The position numbers were made by a program, and so were the translations under genes. A model generated the notes under the pieces. That model saw only the letters and a program-made list of their open reading frames with translations, was not told the DNA's origin and made no database searches. From a virus, in IMG/VR virus record IMGVR_UViG_3300017782_000120, positions 1 through 30,403 of that record: a DNA stretch of 30,403 nucleotides. One strand, 5' to 3'. Of the stretch, positions 1-19,084 are shown piece by piece (position 1 is the stretch's first letter; the number at the start of each line of letters is the position of its first letter).

Positions 1-123
1 AAACAACAAGTTAAGTTATACAAAATAAAGGGAAATCCTAACAACCCAAGAATTATAAAAAATGATAAGTTTAAGAAGTTAGTTAAGTCTATTAAAGAGT
101 TCCCAGAAATGTTAGAAAAAAGA
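1..123. repeat. Terminal direct repeat, left copy
   Basis: These 123 bases are identical to 30281-30403. The repeat falls inside the open frame of the ParB-like gene and restores its missing start, so the simplest reading is a circular map of 30,280 bp whose ends overlap by an assembly k-mer. A true short terminal redundancy cannot be excluded from sequence alone. Confidence 0.97.
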
Positions 124-591
124 CCTATTATAGTAGATGAAGAAATGATGGTTTTAGGTGGTAATATGAGATTAAAAGCAAGTAAAGATGCTGGTCTTAA
201 TGAAGTGTGGATAGATATAGCTAAAGGATGGACAAAAGAACAGAAAGATGAATTTGTTGTAAAAGACAATGTTAACTTTGGAGAATGGGAATGGGATATG
301 TTGGCAAACGAATGGGATAGCGTAGAGCTTGCAGATTGGGGATTAGATGTTTGGCAAAACGAGAATGATATTGAAACGAGTGATGAATTTAGTTTACCTG
401 ATGGAGACAAAAACAACATAGAACAAATAACTTACACTTTAAGTAGTGAACAATGTAATATAATAAAAGAAGCAATACAGGATATAAAAAAAACTGAAGA
501 ATATAAGTACGTAGAAACTTATGGAAATGAAAACAGCAATGGAAATGCTTTATATTTATTAATAAGTGAATGGAAAAAAACAAACAATTAA
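1..591 (+). CDS. ParB/Spo0J-like N-terminal domain protein (5' end across the join)
   Basis: Base 1 is codon 2 of this gene; the ATG is at 30278 on the other side of the circular join, giving 197 aa. The first 110 residues look like a ParB-type nuclease/CTPase fold: an N-terminal NPNNPRIIKNDKF segment, then PIIVDEEMMVLGGNMRLKA, which corresponds to the GxxR region of ParB box II with the usual H/ER replaced by NMR. It is followed by the FGEWEWDMLANEWD and WGLDVW segments common in phage ParB-like proteins that sit beside DNA methylases. The C-terminal 70 residues are acidic and unassigned. It overlaps the next gene by 22 bp and heads the putative DNA-modification module. A role in site recognition or nicking is inference; no partner ParA is present, so plasmid-type partitioning is unlikely. 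Confidence 0.8.
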   Translation, partial: KQQVKLYKIKGNPNNPRIIKNDKFKKLVKSIKEFPEMLEKRPIIVDEEMMVLGGNMRLKASKDAGLNEVWIDIAKGWTKEQKDEFVVKDNVNFGEWEWDMLANEWDSVELADWGLDVWQNENDIETSDEFSLPDGDKNNIEQITYTLSSEQCNIIKEAIQDIKKTEEYKYVETYGNENSNGNALYLLISEWKKTNN

Positions 592-1268
592 AAGAAATAA
601 AAGTAAAGATTATAGACAGTAAAACTGCAAAAAGATATACTGTAGAAAATCATTATATGAAAACTTTTCCAATAGCTAAAGTCTGTTTTGGAGTTTTTTA
701 TAATAAGCTATTAAGAGGGGTTGTTACATTTGGTCTTAGTCCAAGTACAGAACAAAAAGTAAAAAAAATAGTTCCTAAAATAAATGATAATGAATTTATA
801 GAAATGCAAAGAATGAACTTGTCTGATGTTTTAGGACATAATGCAGAAAGTTATGTGCTGGGAAAAATATATAAATTATTTAAAGACAATACTAAAGTTA
901 AAATTCTTTTGACACACGCAGGAGGATGCAAAAATGATTGTGGTATTGTTTATCAGGCTAGTAGTTGGCTGTATTTTGGTAAAGAAGTTTGCAATGACTT
1001 TTACCATACTGTAAATGGGGAATATAAAAACATAATATCACCGATGCGTTTTGGTAGAGTGCCAAGAGAAATAGTAAAACAAGGAAGTCAAAAAGTTGGA
1101 GAATATTTATTTGGTGAGGGTAAAATAATAAATTCATTTAGATATTTGTATATTTATCCACTTAACAAAGGAATTAGAAGTTATTTAGAAAAAAAATGCA
1201 AAGATTATCCTAAAGATAGTCAGGTTTTTAGAAAAAATCAAGAATGGATAACAGGGGGTGACCAATAG
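570..1268 (+). CDS. Mom-like DNA-modification protein 1 (GNAT-type fold)
   Basis: This 232-aa protein resembles the phage Mu Mom family, GNAT-fold enzymes that modify adenine N6 in phage DNA against restriction. Landmarks: ENHYMK (residues 26-31), FGVF (40-43), GVVTFG (50-55), EMQRM (78-82), NAES (91-94), and a core with THAGGCKNDCGIVYQAS at 115-131, then WLYFGK. The pattern HY, FG, RM, ES and G-Y-Q/R-AS is shared with the second Mom-like gene at 1310. The last 80 residues are basic and aromatic, possibly DNA-binding. The ATG overlaps the ParB-like gene by 22 bp, so the two are probably co-translated. The 3' end (GGG GGT GAC CAA TAG) supplies the 5' acceptor strand of the tRNA-like element at 1254-1301. 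Family assignment is from recall of sequence patterns; the donor and product are unknown. Confidence 0.75.
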   Translation: MEKNKQLKEIKVKIIDSKTAKRYTVENHYMKTFPIAKVCFGVFYNKLLRGVVTFGLSPSTEQKVKKIVPKINDNEFIEMQRMNLSDVLGHNAESYVLGKIYKLFKDNTKVKILLTHAGGCKNDCGIVYQASSWLYFGKEVCNDFYHTVNGEYKNIISPMRFGRVPREIVKQGSQKVGEYLFGEGKIINSFRYLYIYPLNKGIRSYLEKKCKDYPKDSQVFRKNQEWITGGDQ

Positions 1269-1301
1269 GGGTTTTATGCAGTTCGAACCTGCACACCTCC
1301 A
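1254..1301 (+). ncRNA. tRNA-like minihelix, alanine-type acceptor, no anticodon arm
   Basis: A 48-nt element folds as acceptor stem GGGGGTG (1254-1260) with CACCTCC (1294-1300), 7 bp with G3:U70; a small D-like arm ACC (1261-1263) with GGT (1270-1272) around loop AATAGG; and a perfect T arm TGCAG (1277-1281), loop TTCGAAC, CTGCA (1289-1293). Base 73 is A and the next bases are CTA, so CCA would have to be added. There is no anticodon arm, as in the tRNA-like domain of tmRNA, whose acceptor stem is very similar. G3:U70 with A73 is the established identity set for alanyl-tRNA synthetase, which charges minihelices without an anticodon. It overlaps the end of the Mom-like gene 1 and lies 8 nt before the ATG of Mom-like gene 2. 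An attP-type remnant of tRNA-Ala is the main alternative, but it would not explain the matching 5' acceptor strand. Confidence 0.7.
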
Positions 1302-1309
1302 CTATAAAA

Positions 1310-2011
1310 ATGGGTAGAGCAAAAGAAATATTAGTTAAGGTTATAAAAAGCAAGGTAGCTAATGCCTTTATAAAGAAACAACACTATTCAGGCAAAGTTG
1401 TTCCTAACAGCACGTTACATTTTGGTTGCTTTTTAGATAATCGTTTACACGGGGTAATGAGTTACGGCAGTCCGTTTGTAAAAAAAAATGTAATTAATTT
1501 AGTTGAAGGAACAGGATGGAATGAGATGATAGAATTAAATAGAATGGCTTTTGATGAGTTTTTGCCTAAGTATAGTGAAAGTAGGTGTATCGCTATAAGC
1601 ATAAGATTAATAAAAAAAAATGCCCCACAAATCAAATGGATATTAAGTTTTAGTGATGGCTGTAGCTGTGGAGATGGAACAATATACAGGGCTAGTGGGT
1701 TTAAATTAATAGGAATAAAAGATAATAATGGTTTGTTCAATTATAATGGTGAAAATATACACGGAAAAGTCTTATGGGATAGAGGTATAAGCAAAAGTTG
1801 GTGTATTCAGGACAAAGAACTCGCAGAAATTAATTCTAGAAAAAATACATCAATAAAAAGAATAAAAGGTAAACAATTAAAGTATTTATATTTAATTGAT
1901 AAAAGTTGTAAAATAACTGTTCCAATATTGCCTTTTAGTGAAATAGATAAACAAGGGGCAGGAATGTATAAAGGTGAAAAGATAACATTAAAAGAAAGAC
2001 AAAATGCGTGA
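1310..2011 (+). CDS. Mom-like DNA-modification protein 2 (GNAT-type fold)
   Basis: This 233-aa paralogue of the gene at 570 has diverged strongly but keeps the same landmarks in order: KQHY (23-26), HFGCF (37-41), HGVMSYG (47-53), ELNRM (75-79), SES (89-91), and SFSDGCSCGDGTIYRAS (113-129). The ISKSW segment near 165 and the basic C-terminal third have no obvious counterpart of equal length in paralogue 1. The start ATG follows the minihelix element by 8 nt. Its final codon GCG and stop TGA (2006-2011) are the first bases of the tRNA-Gly-like element, repeating the gene-then-RNA arrangement of paralogue 1. Likely role: adenine modification of phage DNA, with a different donor or target from paralogue 1 (inference). 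Confidence 0.72.
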   Translation: MGRAKEILVKVIKSKVANAFIKKQHYSGKVVPNSTLHFGCFLDNRLHGVMSYGSPFVKKNVINLVEGTGWNEMIELNRMAFDEFLPKYSESRCIAISIRLIKKNAPQIKWILSFSDGCSCGDGTIYRASGFKLIGIKDNNGLFNYNGENIHGKVLWDRGISKSWCIQDKELAEINSRKNTSIKRIKGKQLKYLYLIDKSCKITVPILPFSEIDKQGAGMYKGEKITLKERQNA

Positions 2012-2077
2012 TTAGCATATACAGTAATGCGTTGGCTATTCCAAGTCAAAAAAGGGGTGCAATTCCACCATCACGCT
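2006..2077 (+). tRNA. tRNA-Gly(UCC)-like RNA with aberrant T and D loops
   Basis: Acceptor GCGTGAT (2006-2012) pairs perfectly with ATCACGC (2070-2076); base 73 is T; CCA is not encoded (CTA follows). D arm: GCAT/ATGC (2015-2018, 2027-2030) around ATACAGTA, with no GG pair. Anticodon stem TTGGC (2032-2036) with GTCAA (2045-2049) encloses the 8-nt loop TATTCCAA, giving U33, anticodon UCC and A37. The T region AGGGG-TGCAATT-CCACC carries G-U-G-C-A where T-psi-C is normal, and its stem has two mismatches; a 4-bp GGTG/CACC stem is an alternative. G1-C72, C2-G71, G3-C70, U73, C35 and C36 are the known bacterial glycine identity bases. Loss of D-loop GG and T-psi-C recalls the staphylococcal cell-wall glycyl-tRNAs, which avoid translation. 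It overlaps the end of Mom-like gene 2 by 6 bases. Confidence 0.72.
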
Positions 2078-4534: not shown

Positions 4535-5060
4535 TAATGTAGTAAATTTTCTTTTAAGACTTGGAGAGTATCACGATCAGATAAGCACAACTTCTGTAGG
4601 TGATATTTGGGAGATTAATCTAGAAAAGATGCAAAAGATGCCTTTGCTACACATTAATCCAACTTCAGTAGTAACAGGAGACAGTCAATTAACATATAAC
4701 TTTCAAATATTTATAGCCGACTTAGTATCTGAAAAAGAAAACTGGACTATGAATAATGCAGACGCTAATTTTACAAAGTTAATTAAGACTTTAAATAATG
4801 AGCAAGATGTATTTAATCAAACACTACAGATAGCAACAGATTTTATTGGAATGTTAAGGCACTCAGAAAGACAATCACTAGCAGGCATTAACGATATAAA
4901 CGAAGCTATTTATTTTACAGAAGACCAGTTTACTTTAGAGCCTTTTCAAGAAAGGTTTGACAATCTACTTTGTGGCTATGTTTTTCAAATCGGGGTGTTA
5001 GTACAAAATGACTTCCAGACTTGCAACATACCAGTAACACAAGCAGGAGCAGGATATTAA
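4509..5060 (+). CDS. Putative tail completion/terminator protein
   Basis: This 183-aa protein begins inside the previous frame (26-bp overlap). It has an N-terminal helix (NVVNFLLRLGEYHDQI), a beta-rich middle (LTYNFQIFIADLV) and the ending LLCGYVFQIGVLVQNDFQTCNIP. Alternating beta strands and the mention of a dimer-like hydrophobic core fit head-tail or tail-terminator proteins. Its place between the chaperone and connector genes supports this, but no named family is certain. Confidence 0.45.
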   Translation: MAVRNKTYNNVVNFLLRLGEYHDQISTTSVGDIWEINLEKMQKMPLLHINPTSVVTGDSQLTYNFQIFIADLVSEKENWTMNNADANFTKLIKTLNNEQDVFNQTLQIATDFIGMLRHSERQSLAGINDINEAIYFTEDQFTLEPFQERFDNLLCGYVFQIGVLVQNDFQTCNIPVTQAGAGY

Positions 5061-7899: not shown

Positions 7900-10613
7900 T
7901 GTCAGTACAACTAATATTATATCCCCAAAGGCAGCAAAACACTAATGAATACATAGTAAATGGAATAAGTTTTATTAATTTAAACTTGACCACTATATAT
8001 AATACAACAGCAGCTTTGCCTGACCAAGATGCTATTAATAACAGCCCACCTACAATAGTTAACACTTGGTTTAGATATAGAACATCAGGTAGTCCTTGGG
8101 CAGTAATTGCAAACCCAGCAGAAGGCGCACCGCCTGTTGGAGCGTTAGGTGAAGTAGTATTATTTAAATCACCATCTATATCACCAACAGGAAGGTCGGG
8201 AATATATCAAAAACTTGACTCTTTAGTAGTTGGTCAATCTTATAATGTTAGTATTAATATAGCATCAACAATAATAGGTGGTACATTAAGAATTAAAACA
8301 TATACAGGAAGCATCTTACAAAGCACTTATTCTACTACAGCTTTAACAGGTGAAATCACTACAACATTTATAGCTAATTCAACTCAAGATACTTTCTTAA
8401 TAGAATATGAAGGAATTGTAAGTGATTTGAAAATTGATGATATATCAGTAGAAGGGGCAACTCTTTTGGCTAGAGAAACTTATGAAGGTCAAGTAATATG
8501 TGACTTATATGAAGATGAAGATATACCACTTAGTCTTAGTGTAGATAACTTTAAAAATGTAGCTGAAAAAGTACAATCATATTCTAAAGGGTTTAAACTA
8601 CCAGCAACAAAAAGAAACAATCAAATATTCACAAATCTTTTTGAGGTTACAATGGTACAAGATGTTTTTAGCTTTAATCCCTACATTAAGACACCTTGTG
8701 TATTAAAACAAAATGGATTTATAATATTTGATGGATATTTAAGACTTATAGACATACAAGACAAAGAAGCTGAAATAAGTTATAATGTAAATCTCTATTC
8801 TGAGGTCATAGCTTTAGCAGATGTGTTACAAAATAGAACTTTTCAAGACATAGATTTTAGCGAATTAAACCATACATATAATAAAATAAGTATTAGAAAT
8901 AGTTGGGATGATGGGATAGGTTTACCTTTAATAAATACTTTGCCAGCTTCTAGTTTTGCTTATGATGATACAATAGGTTTTAACAATACTAATGTTTTAA
9001 AATATCCTTTTGTAGACTGGGCACACGATATGTTAGTAGGTAACGGGGCAACAGGTAATTTATCTAATTATGGTTTTCCAGAGTTAACTACTTTAGAACA
9101 AGCCTTCAGACCTTTTATACAGCTAAAATATTTAATAAATAGAATCTTTGCAAATACTGAATTTACTTGGACATCTACATTTTTTGATAGTGCAGACTTT
9201 GAGAAATTGTTTATGGACTTTAATTGGGGTGGAGATGGTTTACCAACTCCTGAAAACACTTTTAGGGCTAGATGGGGTGTAGTAGGCTCTATAAGTCCGA
9301 ATACTGGTACAGGCTCTTACAAGGCTCTAGCATTATTACCAACATCTACAGAACCATTATTAACAAATTCAACATTACCACCAAATTTTAATACAACTAC
9401 TTATGTTCTTACAGCCATAACAGATAATGAAATATATTTTATAAATTATAATTTTAGACTTACAAGAAGCACAGGCTCATCTACAGTTAATTGTAGATGG
9501 ATAAAAAATAAAGGAGTAGCAGGAGAACAAGTAATTAATGAAATAACAGGTATTGATTTTAGCTCTATTACTAACACGTCTTTTTATAGTGGAGCAATAC
9601 ACGTAGAACTAAACACTGGAGATACTTTAAGTGCTGAATTTAATGGCAGCACAGATATAAATCAAGCAGCAAGTATTGTAATTTTTAATCAATCAAGCAC
9701 TTCAGTTTTACCAGCTTCTTTACTAGCCTTGAGAGGTGAATTAAGTCAATGGGACTTTTTAAAGGGAATATTAACTATGTTTAACTTAGTTAGTATGCCT
9801 GACAAAGACAATCCAAATAATATTAATTTTGAAACTTATAATGATGTCTTTATTACAGACCCAAATATTGTAACACACGACTGGACAAGTAAAGTAGATA
9901 TTTCAGAAATGAAGCTAACACCTTTAACAGAGTTAAACAGAAAGACTATTTTTAAATTTGTAGAGGAAGATGATGATTATGTTTTTAATGTATATAAAGA
10001 GTCTGTAGGTGGTCACTTGTATGGAAGCAAAGTATTTGATGCTTCTGGATTGAACCTATTAACTGGCATAAATGAAATTATTGCAGAACCTTTTGCTACA
10101 ACTATCTCAAAACCTTTAATGCCCCAGTTTCCACAATTTATTGTACCAACTCTTTATTCTATGAATGATGACGGTAGTACAGAAGGCTTTGACAATGCAC
10201 CTAGAATACTTTATAATAACGGAAAAAAAGATACAGGTATTGAATATTATATACCTAGTCAAAATGGAGAAGATAGTGAAAACCAACCTGAATTTTTACA
10301 GTTTAGTCATTTGTCTACAATACCAACAGACGTAGGTACTTTAGATTTTAACTTTGGAGAATGTCAATTAATAGCCCCTATTGGAGAAGCTGTGCCTGAC
10401 AATTTATTTAATCTTTATTGGTTACCATACTATAATGAGTTATACAATTCTAACACAAGGACTATGAGTCTTAAAGTAAATTTAGATGCTTCAGATGTTA
10501 CGGTGTTTAAGTTTAATGACAAAGTATTTATAAAAAACAGAACATTTAGAGTAAACAATATACAGTACAAACCAAACGATTTAGCAACAGTAGAATTTAT
10601 ATTAATACCATAA
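7899..10613 (+). CDS. Large baseplate/tail-tip protein
   Basis: 904 aa, the largest protein here. The N-terminal 190 residues form a beta-sandwich of the carbohydrate-binding type (SGIYQKLDSLVVGQSYNVSI, TLRIKTYTG, FLIEYEGIVSDLKIDDISVE). Residues 200-310 (DLYEDEDIPLSLSVDNF, KGFKLPATKRNNQIFTNLF) resemble the hub domain of tail-associated proteins. The C-terminus (VFIKNRTFRVNNIQYKP) is also beta-rich. Likely role: tail tip assembly and first contact with surface glycans. Overlaps both neighbours by one base (TAATG), indicating a coupled operon. Confidence 0.55.
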   Translation: MSVQLILYPQRQQNTNEYIVNGISFINLNLTTIYNTTAALPDQDAINNSPPTIVNTWFRYRTSGSPWAVIANPAEGAPPVGALGEVVLFKSPSISPTGRSGIYQKLDSLVVGQSYNVSINIASTIIGGTLRIKTYTGSILQSTYSTTALTGEITTTFIANSTQDTFLIEYEGIVSDLKIDDISVEGATLLARETYEGQVICDLYEDEDIPLSLSVDNFKNVAEKVQSYSKGFKLPATKRNNQIFTNLFEVTMVQDVFSFNPYIKTPCVLKQNGFIIFDGYLRLIDIQDKEAEISYNVNLYSEVIALADVLQNRTFQDIDFSELNHTYNKISIRNSWDDGIGLPLINTLPASSFAYDDTIGFNNTNVLKYPFVDWAHDMLVGNGATGNLSNYGFPELTTLEQAFRPFIQLKYLINRIFANTEFTWTSTFFDSADFEKLFMDFNWGGDGLPTPENTFRARWGVVGSISPNTGTGSYKALALLPTSTEPLLTNSTLPPNFNTTTYVLTAITDNEIYFINYNFRLTRSTGSSTVNCRWIKNKGVAGEQVINEITGIDFSSITNTSFYSGAIHVELNTGDTLSAEFNGSTDINQAASIVIFNQSSTSVLPASLLALRGELSQWDFLKGILTMFNLVSMPDKDNPNNINFETYNDVFITDPNIVTHDWTSKVDISEMKLTPLTELNRKTIFKFVEEDDDYVFNVYKESVGGHLYGSKVFDASGLNLLTGINEIIAEPFATTISKPLMPQFPQFIVPTLYSMNDDGSTEGFDNAPRILYNNGKKDTGIEYYIPSQNGEDSENQPEFLQFSHLSTIPTDVGTLDFNFGECQLIAPIGEAVPDNLFNLYWLPYYNELYNSNTRTMSLKVNLDASDVTVFKFNDKVFIKNRTFRVNNIQYKPNDLATVEFILIP

Positions 10614-17264: not shown

Positions 17265-18062
17265 ATGACTCAAAAACTTGGATTATCATTGAGCCTTCCT
17301 TCTATTAAAACAGGTGGTGCTAGTGCCTTTAAAAATTTATATTCTTTAAATTTTGATGGGGTTGATGATTATGTAGATTTTGGAGATGAAGATATATTCA
17401 CACCAAATTATTCGGGTGCTAACAGAGGAATGTCTTGGAGTTTTTGGCTTAAAGCGGCTGATATTACGCAGCAAAGATTACTAAATAAAAGTGGTCTCTT
17501 TTATAGTGGTAGCAGTAAATATGAATATTTGATAACAACTAATTTTGCTAATAAAGTAAAAATTAATATTTATGGTGGTGGTTCTGTTAGTATTGATATG
17601 AGGTTAATACTAAACACTATTTTAACTGATGATACTTGGTTTCATATAGCTTTTACTTGGAATTTAGGCTCTACTAATGCAGATTTAATAGGATATATAA
17701 ATGGAGTAAAACATAGTGTAGCAGATGGGAATGCAAGTTGGTCATTAGCTGGTACTTGGTCGCCTGTTCAAAATACACTTAATCCTTTGTATATGGGAAG
17801 AGATATAAGCAATTACGGAGAAGCTATTTTAGATGAAGTTGCTATATTTGATGATAATTTATCTACTGCTAAAGTACAATCTATTTACAATAGTGGTACA
17901 CCAACTGACTTATCTGGCGAACAATATTTGATAGGCTATTGGAGAAATGGAGATACAGCAGGAACATCTGTATTCCCTACTATTCAAGACTACTCATCAC
18001 AAAGTAACGATGGAACTATGACCAATATGACATCAGGAGATATAATAACAAATACACCATAA
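17265..18062 (+). CDS. LamG/concanavalin-like lectin domain protein A
   Basis: 265 aa. After a 30-residue N-terminus (KLGLSLSLPSIKTGG) comes one LamG-type jelly roll: LNFDGVDDYVDFG, SWSFWLKAA, WFHIAFTWN, IGYINGVKH, LDEVAIFDDNL, then YNSGTPTDLSGEQYLIGYW and GTMTNMTSGDI. Such domains bind glycans; on a virion they act in adsorption, for example as capsid or tail decoration. A close paralogue lies at 18290. No signal peptide. Confidence 0.72.
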   Translation: MTQKLGLSLSLPSIKTGGASAFKNLYSLNFDGVDDYVDFGDEDIFTPNYSGANRGMSWSFWLKAADITQQRLLNKSGLFYSGSSKYEYLITTNFANKVKINIYGGGSVSIDMRLILNTILTDDTWFHIAFTWNLGSTNADLIGYINGVKHSVADGNASWSLAGTWSPVQNTLNPLYMGRDISNYGEAILDEVAIFDDNLSTAKVQSIYNSGTPTDLSGEQYLIGYWRNGDTAGTSVFPTIQDYSSQSNDGTMTNMTSGDIITNTP

Positions 18063-18289: not shown

Positions 18290-19084
18290 ATGGCACAAAA
18301 ATTAGGATTAGCATTAAGTTTACCAACTATCAAAACAGCAGCAGGTTCAGCTTTTGAGAATCTATATTCTTTAGACTTTGATGGGGTGGATGACTATGTA
18401 GACTTTGGTAGTAGTGCTTCTTTTACACCAAATAGCTCAGGTGCAAATCGTGGTTTTTCTATCTCTTTATGGGTAAAAACTACTGCAAGTGGACCAACAA
18501 TTTGCAGTAAACTAAATATTGGTAATTTAGAATACTCTGTAAAAATTGGGGCTGGTGGAAATATTGATGTTATATTTTATGGCAATAACAGTGGTGTAAT
18601 ATTTCAAAGATTAATCTGCGACACAAGCTATGGCGGTTTTATTGCTATTAATGATGGTAATTGGCATCATCTTGCAGTTACCTTTAATTTAGGAAGCACT
18701 GCAAGTTCAATTATAATTTACATAGATGGTGTGGAGTTTTCAGATAGTAATGGTGGTGCTAATTATGCTAGTACAGGAACGTGGTCGCCTGTTATAAATA
18801 CATCTGCTTATTTTGCACTTAACACTCCTAGTAGAGGTTTTAGTGGAAATATAGATGAATTGTCTATTTGGGATGGTTCTCTTAACCAAAGCGGAATTAA
18901 TGAAATATACAATAGTGGAACACCTACTGATTTGTCAGGAGGACAGTATTTAATAGGCTGGTGGAGAAACGGAGACCCAACAGGAACAGGTGCATTTCCA
19001 ACAATAGTAAATCAAGAAGGGGCGGTTTTAGATGGAACAATGACTAATATGACTTCTGGCGATATAGTAACAGACGTACCTTAA
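18290..19084 (+). CDS. LamG/concanavalin-like lectin domain protein B
   Basis: 264 aa, paralogue of the protein at 17265. Both ends match closely (KLGLALSLPTIKT; LDFDGVDDYVDFG; NSGTPTDLSGGQYLIGWW; GTMTNMTSGDI), while the middle, which would form the jelly-roll loops and sugar site (about residues 65-170), is divergent. That is the pattern of a duplicated receptor-binding domain under diversifying selection. It lies 10 bp before the portal gene. Confidence 0.72.
   Translation: MAQKLGLALSLPTIKTAAGSAFENLYSLDFDGVDDYVDFGSSASFTPNSSGANRGFSISLWVKTTASGPTICSKLNIGNLEYSVKIGAGGNIDVIFYGNNSGVIFQRLICDTSYGGFIAINDGNWHHLAVTFNLGSTASSIIIYIDGVEFSDSNGGANYASTGTWSPVINTSAYFALNTPSRGFSGNIDELSIWDGSLNQSGINEIYNSGTPTDLSGGQYLIGWWRNGDPTGTGAFPTIVNQEGAVLDGTMTNMTSGDIVTDVP

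Follow-up and report, generated by a model that had tools for sequence, protein, structure and literature searches.

Outside translation, transfer RNAs (tRNAs) find other uses, as in the staphylococci, where a non-proteogenic tRNA-Gly is used by Fem transferases, which, like the Leu/Phe transferases, have GNAT folds; transfer-messenger RNA (tmRNA), for its part, is charged with alanine. Amino acids are also placed on phage DNA, which some phages mask chemically by means of Mom genes. The Mom protein of phage Mu gives alpha-N-(deoxyribofuranosylpurin-6-yl)glycinamide, as the product is named in the title of a reference listed in PMC3874153 (Swinton 1983), and the relevant passage of a review (PMC7824862) gives an acyl-coenzyme A (acyl-CoA), e.g. 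glycyl-CoA, as the Mom donor. Phage CmoY, as described in part of PMC12783734, ligates glycine to 5-carboxymethylcytosine in an ATP-dependent reaction that uses free glycine. We report here on two small RNA elements, T1 and T2, and the two Mom genes, Mom1 and Mom2, that they accompany in a 30.4-kb virus record of IMG/VR (IMGVR_UViG_3300017782_000120; the whole stretch of 30,403 nucleotides (nt) is referred to as the window).

An earlier note on this DNA had described T1 as an anticodon-less minihelix with the alanine signature, and did not list T2. We find beyond this that T1 belongs with a Mom gene and that T2, a glycine-type element, follows a second Mom gene. Established here are the two elements, with their folds and identity nucleotides, and how closely they are coupled to two separate Mom clades. 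We put at roughly three in four the probability that Mom is an aminoacyl-tRNA-dependent DNA modifier for which T1-like and T2-like RNAs would be dedicated, non-decoding donors in adenine modification.

Two tRNA-like RNAs and their structures

The gene order in the window is a ParB-like gene, Mom1, T1, Mom2 and T2, followed by the terminase region:

1 to 591, plus strand: ParB-like gene upstream of Mom1, whose 5' end the window does not include (ParB_N E 5.8e-4, under the family cut-off)
570 to 1268, plus strand: Mom1 gene (PF25680, 135.5 bits, E 2.4e-39), in its own clade, stop codon inside T1
1254 to 1301, plus strand: T1, anticodon-less tRNA-like RNA of alanine identity (sequence, fold, covariation, model match 73.7 bits)
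1310 to 2011, plus strand: Mom2 gene (PF25680, 161.2 bits, E 3.2e-47), in its own clade, stop codon inside T2
2006 to 2077, plus strand: T2, tRNA-Gly-like cloverleaf (RF00005 34.8 bits, fold, covariation, model match 80.7 bits)

The window itself is included in each of the two models behind the 73.7 and 80.7 bits. T1 and T2 both start within mom coding sequence and include its stop codon (1254-1268 and 2006-2012), so that in the window a single transcript may be contested by RNA processing and mom translation.

T1 is 48 nt long and its sequence bears out the anatomy that had been claimed for it. The 7-bp acceptor pairs GGGGGTG (1254-1260) with CACCTCC (1294-1300), places G3 opposite T70 (G3:U70) and is followed by A73 at 1301, and the T arm at 1277-1293 (TGCAG-TTCGAAC-CTGCA) has a fully paired 5-bp stem. 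Between the two lies a spacer of 16 nt (1261-1276) in which the GG-containing mini D arm can be seen as ACC-AATAGG-GGT, a D-like arm at 1261-1272 with the loop AATAGG. When both strands of the window were scanned for this anatomy (7/7 acceptor pairs, 5/5 T-stem pairs, TTCRANY loop), 1254-1301 was the sole site; 300 first-order Markov simulations, of one strand each, gave a mean of 0.02 chance occurrences, and none once G3:U70 and A73 were also required.

The predicted fold of 1254-1301 is the structure described above, at -17.2 kcal/mol. Since its z score is -1.99 alone and -0.60 with flanks, the stability of the single sequence is weak evidence, and we therefore rely on covariation. Across 17 distinct homologues, all of the 255 cells are paired (100%), 7 of the 15 pairs have changed on both sides, and the covariation score is 0.557 compared with at most 0.177 when the partners are slid. 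Acceptor pairs 5-7 and four of the five T-stem pairs vary freely and the neighbouring pairs of G3:U70 covary, whilst G3:U70 and A73 are each kept in 17/17. This comparison confirms T1 as a real structure. Homologues that had lost G3:U70 or the T arm without compensation were sought and none was found among the 17. Because no homologue has lost G3:U70 or A73, the proposal that T1 would be an anticodon-less RNA of alanine identity acting outside translation is supported as the best reading of the sequence.

The likeness of T1 to tmRNA also stands. The Rfam tmRNA family (RF00023) matches 1254-1304 with 23.9 bits (E 4e-7), below the gathering score of 47, and T1 shares with the tRNA-like domain of tmRNA a GGGG acceptor start, A73 and the D-like and T arms. 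It differs in its length of 48 nt, in accompanying Mom1, and in having no mRNA-like domain with a tag frame, the entire middle of the model being absent from the match. Against the tRNA family (RF00005), the 16 nt from acceptor to T arm leave T1 with no anticodon arm; T1 is tRNA-like, and not a tRNA.

T2 has the acceptor GCGTGAT/ATCACGC (2006-2012/2070-2076), U73 at 2077, and TCC at 2040-2042 in the anticodon position, within a loop of 8 nt rather than a 7-nt loop with U33. A focused search with RF00005 gave 34.8 bits against a threshold of 29, and the cloverleaf and glycine identity set resemble those of bacterial tRNA-Gly. The T2 family departs from bacterial tRNA-Gly in its bulged T stem (36/36), in U33 not being kept, in its 8-nt loops and in its linkage to Mom. 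In T2 the bulged base is an A at 2067. A continuous 5-bp T stem, with 51-63 paired, occurs in 0/36 distinct glycine-type elements; a plain T stem was tried and rejected, as it pairs 60% of T-stem cells whereas the bulged form pairs 100%. At the bulge, 36/36 rows of A3 and 19/19 rows of A8 have A, where several elements from Clostridia, e.g. L179, L180 and L184, appear by eye to have U. Over the 36 distinct elements 99.7% of cells are paired, 15 of 21 pairs have changed on both sides, and the covariation score is 0.785 compared with at most 0.190 for slid partners.

Neither RNA would be noticed by routine means: ARAGORN called no RNA anywhere in the window, T1 and T2 included, and a fast whole-window Rfam search at the gathering threshold likewise reported none. 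Standard annotation also misses such RNAs elsewhere, as in Psychrobacter phage Y8A, in which two CCA-ending elements follow a Mom gene; the part of the phage Y8A paper that deals with this reports no tRNA genes.

Coupling of the RNAs to two Mom clades

Both proteins belong to the Mom family, scoring above the PF25680 cut-off of 27.1 bits. Foldseek places the predicted models close to Mu Mom (PDB 8bv8), with E 1.5e-11 for Mom1 (mean predicted local distance difference test score 78.9) and E 3.0e-15 for Mom2 (85.2), and VIA-align superimposes Mom2 on 8bv8 over 196 aligned residues (Z 20.9, root mean square deviation 4.0). The Mu Mom residues H48, Y49, R101, E113, S114 and Y149 are invariant in the Mom1 and Mom2 rows; S114 is probably the residue altered in the inactive mutant S124A of 8bv8, the offset being deduced. 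Mu Mom thus has family, fold, invariant residues and, going by the reference title, a glycinamide product to set beside Mom1 and Mom2, from which it differs in having no adjoining tRNA-like element that we could find. In a tree of 117 distinct Mom proteins, flagged with long-branch warnings, Mom1 (21 rows) and Mom2 (84 rows) form separate clades, each with support 100/99, and a Mom of phage Y8A falls in the Mom2 clade. A phage that holds Mom1 and Mom2 also has a third, distant Mom-like gene (L004 553-1500, the same contig as L095 2-760 and L098 6978-7925), beside which no element was found.

Searching IMG/VR for Mom1 gave 15 loci, of which L012, L014 and L016 are cut before the gene end. All 12 with a complete Mom1-type gene have the alanine element, nine at the Mom1 end and three (L009-L011) past Mom2 on the other strand. 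Glycine-type elements were sought in the loci of the best 80 of 246 Mom2 relatives surveyed, using a covariance model, R2, built from the 36 distinct elements found near Mom. With whole loci searched, one lay beside or overlapping the Mom 3' end, on either strand, in 80/80 (scores of model members are not independent, and L094 is cut by the contig end), and the sole extra match was a weak one to a tRNA-Trp of L077. The alanine element was present in all seven of these 80 loci that also hold Mom1 and in 0/73 of the others, several of which are cut short upstream.

Searching in the other direction, from RNA to gene, gives a similar picture. A pattern for the alanine core, of which the acceptor is not a part, has 59 matches in IMG/VR; the 29 that fold (acceptor 7/7, T stem 5/5) all adjoin Mom and keep G3:U70 and A73, and the loci of the 30 that do not fold contain no Mom gene (0/30). 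A pattern for one glycine subtype has 55 matches, 50 of them GCG..CGCU cloverleaves that lie within 500 nt of Mom in 49 cases. The other five are without Mom, and two of these (L240 and L272) look by eye like other tRNAs. Two Mom2 loci in which Mom1 was not found, L086 (1937-2011) and L087 (911-983), have a complete tRNA-Ala (TGC according to ARAGORN in L086) some 1 kb upstream of Mom2; the reduced alanine element may have descended from a gene of this sort.

A scan of prokaryote genomes gave 67 Mom loci, many in metagenome bins, whose titles name Bacteroidota, Bacillota, Pseudomonadota, Acidobacteria, Chloroflexi and other groups. A glycine-like element is present in 54 (40 by R2, 12 by acceptor scan and two, L203 and L222, by eye, each with 6/7 acceptor pairs); 51 of the 54 start less than 250 nt from the end of the Mom match and an encoded CCA follows at least 34, a minimum count with the coordinates of L203 and L222 a few bases off. 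Short CCA-bearing elements escape R2 in L156 and in 14 genome loci; the acceptor scan recovers those of 12 of the 14. This short form (A8; 19 rows, 18 distinct, 17/19 ending in CCA) includes two tandem copies from phage Y8A and covaries in its own right, with pairing in 91.4% of cells, change on both sides in 13 of 18 pairs and a score of 0.550 compared with at most 0.153 for slid partners. Tandem glycine-type elements follow Mom in L156 (2662-2729 and 2734-2802) and in L188 (4810-4879 and 4911-4979), the latter with two Mom2-like frames.

The alanine model, R1, was run on 56 of the 67 genome loci and had three matches, L187 (72 bits), L207 (25 bits, E 0.0063) and L222 (24.1 bits, E 0.01), the last two being weak by themselves. 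In the 19 genome loci with more than one Mom frame, it is only in these same three that the upstream frame scores as Mom1 (428 vs 83, 288 vs 43 and 301 vs 70, respectively). L207 and L222 have different D-like arms, and L222 an encoded CCA (by eye); together with L015 these divergent relatives keep G3:U70 and A73 as judged by eye, L222 with one acceptor mispair. A separate case is L169, from a metagenome-assembled genome titled Tenericutes, where a Mom2-type gene is followed by an apparent anticodon-less tRNA-like RNA (4732-4796) that has D-like and T arms and a terminal CCA. Its acceptor has neither alanine nor glycine identity and its fold is no better than that of shuffled sequences (z 0.04); a third amino acid is possible.

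Some further features stand apart from these elements. Two neighbouring genes of the window (17265-18062 and 18290-19084) match Laminin_G_3, perhaps through duplication, and on the minus strand of L165 (1214-1300), upstream of and opposite in strand to the Mom of Pseudomonas phage PAN70, there is a NiCo riboswitch match of 29.3 bits (cut-off 37) that may be due to chance.

Amino acid identity and a proposed donor role

The bacterial alanine identity set is given, in the passage of PMC9976931 that treats it, as A73, G2-C71, G3:U70, G4-C69 and G20, and the glycine set as U73, G1-C72, C2-G71, G3-C70, C35 and C36. In the T1 family A73, G2-C71 and G3:U70 are present in 17/17 and G4-C69 in 16/17, with one G:U. 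The glycine-type elements have G1-C72 and C2-G71 in 36/36 and G3-C70 in 34/36 (two G:U), the first collection having required positions 1, 2 and 71-73, so that the anticodon and 3-70 alone were left unselected. U73 is found in 49/49 complete sequences, and an NCCA block at the anticodon in 50/50 distinct sequences (C35-C36 50/50), with U, A or C at position 34. Decoding features fare differently, with U33 in 31 and an 8-nt loop in 28 of 50 distinct glycine-type elements. Alanine and glycine identity are kept, and decoding features lost, in these RNAs.

EF-Tu binds tRNA at the T stem, and U33 has a role in the anticodon loop. The missing anticodon arm of T1, and the bulged T stem and abnormal anticodon loops of T2, would leave the charged RNAs out of reach of EF-Tu and the ribosome. 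That such non-decoding RNAs adjoin Mom suggests charged tRNA as the donor, and a glycine unit such as that of the Mu product is the cargo of a Gly-tRNA. We propose a donor of this kind; that the RNAs are charged and recognised by Mom, and that transfer to N6 of adenine and a rearrangement follow, are inferences. Host alanyl- and glycyl-tRNA synthetases would charge T1 and T2; Mom2 would use glycine from T2-like RNAs and Mom1 alanine from T1-like RNAs, and the GNAT-fold Mom would pass the amino acid to adenine N6 of phage DNA. The N6-glycyl adduct would then undergo a five-membered intramolecular N-to-N migration of the Smiles type to give the purin-6-yl glycinamide, with the former N6 as the amide nitrogen. 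If true, acylation of N6 followed by rearrangement would explain how an acyltransferase fold makes a glycinamide. From Mom1 the corresponding alaninamide would be expected, with 14 Da more mass.

In the window each mom stop codon lies in the 5' acceptor strand of an element, so that a transcript processed at its 5' end would serve as message or as donor RNA, but never as both. We lean towards a wider form of the proposal, in which aminoacyl-tRNA supplies the amino acid to Mom enzymes, that of Mu included, and many phages and prophages with Mom have tRNAs of their own for the purpose. T1 would probably then be the extreme case, a tRNA cut down to acceptor and elbow in 48 nt solely for putting alanine onto DNA.

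The nearest systems differ from this proposal in several respects. The Fem enzymes serve peptidoglycan, whereas the acceptor for T2 would be DNA. With CmoY the proposal for Mom2 shares the placing of glycine onto phage DNA as a hypermodification, but CmoY has a cytosine handle and takes free glycine, and the part of the report concerned describes no charged tRNA. In the literature covered, which included few subscription papers and lacked bioRxiv's own preprints, we found no link between Mom and tRNA and no account of Mom with an alanine-type RNA; within those limits the link appears to be new.

Alternative explanations and significance

Several observations weigh against Mom as an aminoacyl-tRNA-dependent enzyme. 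The matches listed for the Mom fold are CoA-type GNATs with no aminoacyl-tRNA transferase among them, although the absence of a Fem- or Leu/Phe-type transferase from the matches listed for this GNAT fold excludes nothing, and the review passage cited above names acyl-CoA as donor. The Mu product is isomeric with the product of simple acyl transfer, so that the proposal requires a hypothetical rearrangement. Among the loci, which are related, some are almost the same, and the counts are not independent. L093 has two Mom2-like genes and one glycine element, and L273 has a glycine element (about 8674-8748) without Mom; by eye, its neighbours are a ParB-like frame on one side and a terminase on the other, an arrangement that loss of Mom could have left. 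R2, acceptor scan and inspection by eye gave no glycine element in 13 of the 67 genome loci (L169, L170, L171, L174, L186, L193-L196, L202, L204, L226, which is cut, and L230, which is partial); in L193 a tRNA-Gly lies apart, about 1.2 kb upstream. Finally, no adjoining element was found at Mu or ten other named-phage Mom loci (L157-L167), and the one tRNA present there, a tRNA-Trp, lies about 1 kb from Mom in L166; such negatives carry little weight, given that ARAGORN, Rfam and R2 also missed both L156 elements and that the scan which found them requires an encoded CCA and is blind to loci without one. Since Mu and the ten others show none, not every Mom needs an element, and if tRNA is the donor at these loci a host tRNA-Gly must serve.

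The alternative that survives best, though we regard it as improbable, is that the elements act in cis at the 3' ends of mom transcripts, as structures whose likeness to tRNA recruits RNase P, a tRNase or a regulator and so affects message stability or translation, with charging unneeded. RNase P processes tRNA 5' ends, and both T1 and T2 contain the mom stop codon in the window. In Mu, moreover, the RNA-binding protein Com controls the translation of mom (according to the passage concerned in PMC6483171). Yet in many loci the element is on the strand opposite Mom and therefore outside the mom message, the amino-acid-specific identity nucleotides that are kept would be needless for processing enzymes, and CCA is encoded in many elements.

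It is very unlikely that these are ordinary phage tRNAs, tRNA relics or attachment sites that drifted to a place beside Mom, the alanine element being a deletion derivative nearing loss. Phage tRNAs are indeed common, ARAGORN calls some T2-like elements tRNA-Gly, and L086 has its complete tRNA-Ala near Mom2, but the 100% and 99.7% of cells that are paired, together with the many compensatory changes, point to selection and not decay. Amino acid type also tracks Mom clade, and the abnormal loops and conserved T-stem bulge are unlike those of translating tRNAs.

We give as little credence to the notion that Mom-like GNATs act on aminoacyl-tRNA itself, with the phage RNAs as decoys or antidotes in place of donors. 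Here the GNAT toxin TacT, which acetylates glycyl-tRNA (as stated in part of PMC9241777), and the acetyl-CoA enzymes among the Mom fold matches offer a parallel; the proteins are, however, members of the Mom family with the Mu residues conserved, and a tRNA-acetylating role leaves the glycine of the Mu product, as its reference title gives it, unexplained. Least probable of all is that the alanine minihelix, which resembles the tRNA-like part of tmRNA, occupies alanyl-tRNA synthetase, EF-Tu or SmpB/tmRNA rescue, and the glycine element likewise for glycine, to the advantage of the phage and independently of Mom chemistry, as this fails to explain why presence and type track the Mom1 and Mom2 genes, and T2, with its bulged T stem, should bind EF-Tu less well.

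The donor of Mom is unproven in the literature passages that name acyl-CoA, and a charged-tRNA donor is now directly testable. If Mom does draw on such RNAs, DNA would join the targets of aminoacyl-tRNA chemistry, and a new DNA base, an alaninamide adenine, is predicted. T1 would then illustrate how far a tRNA can shrink once decoding is dispensable, and elements of this kind would help to predict, from the sequence of a phage genome, how its DNA is modified.
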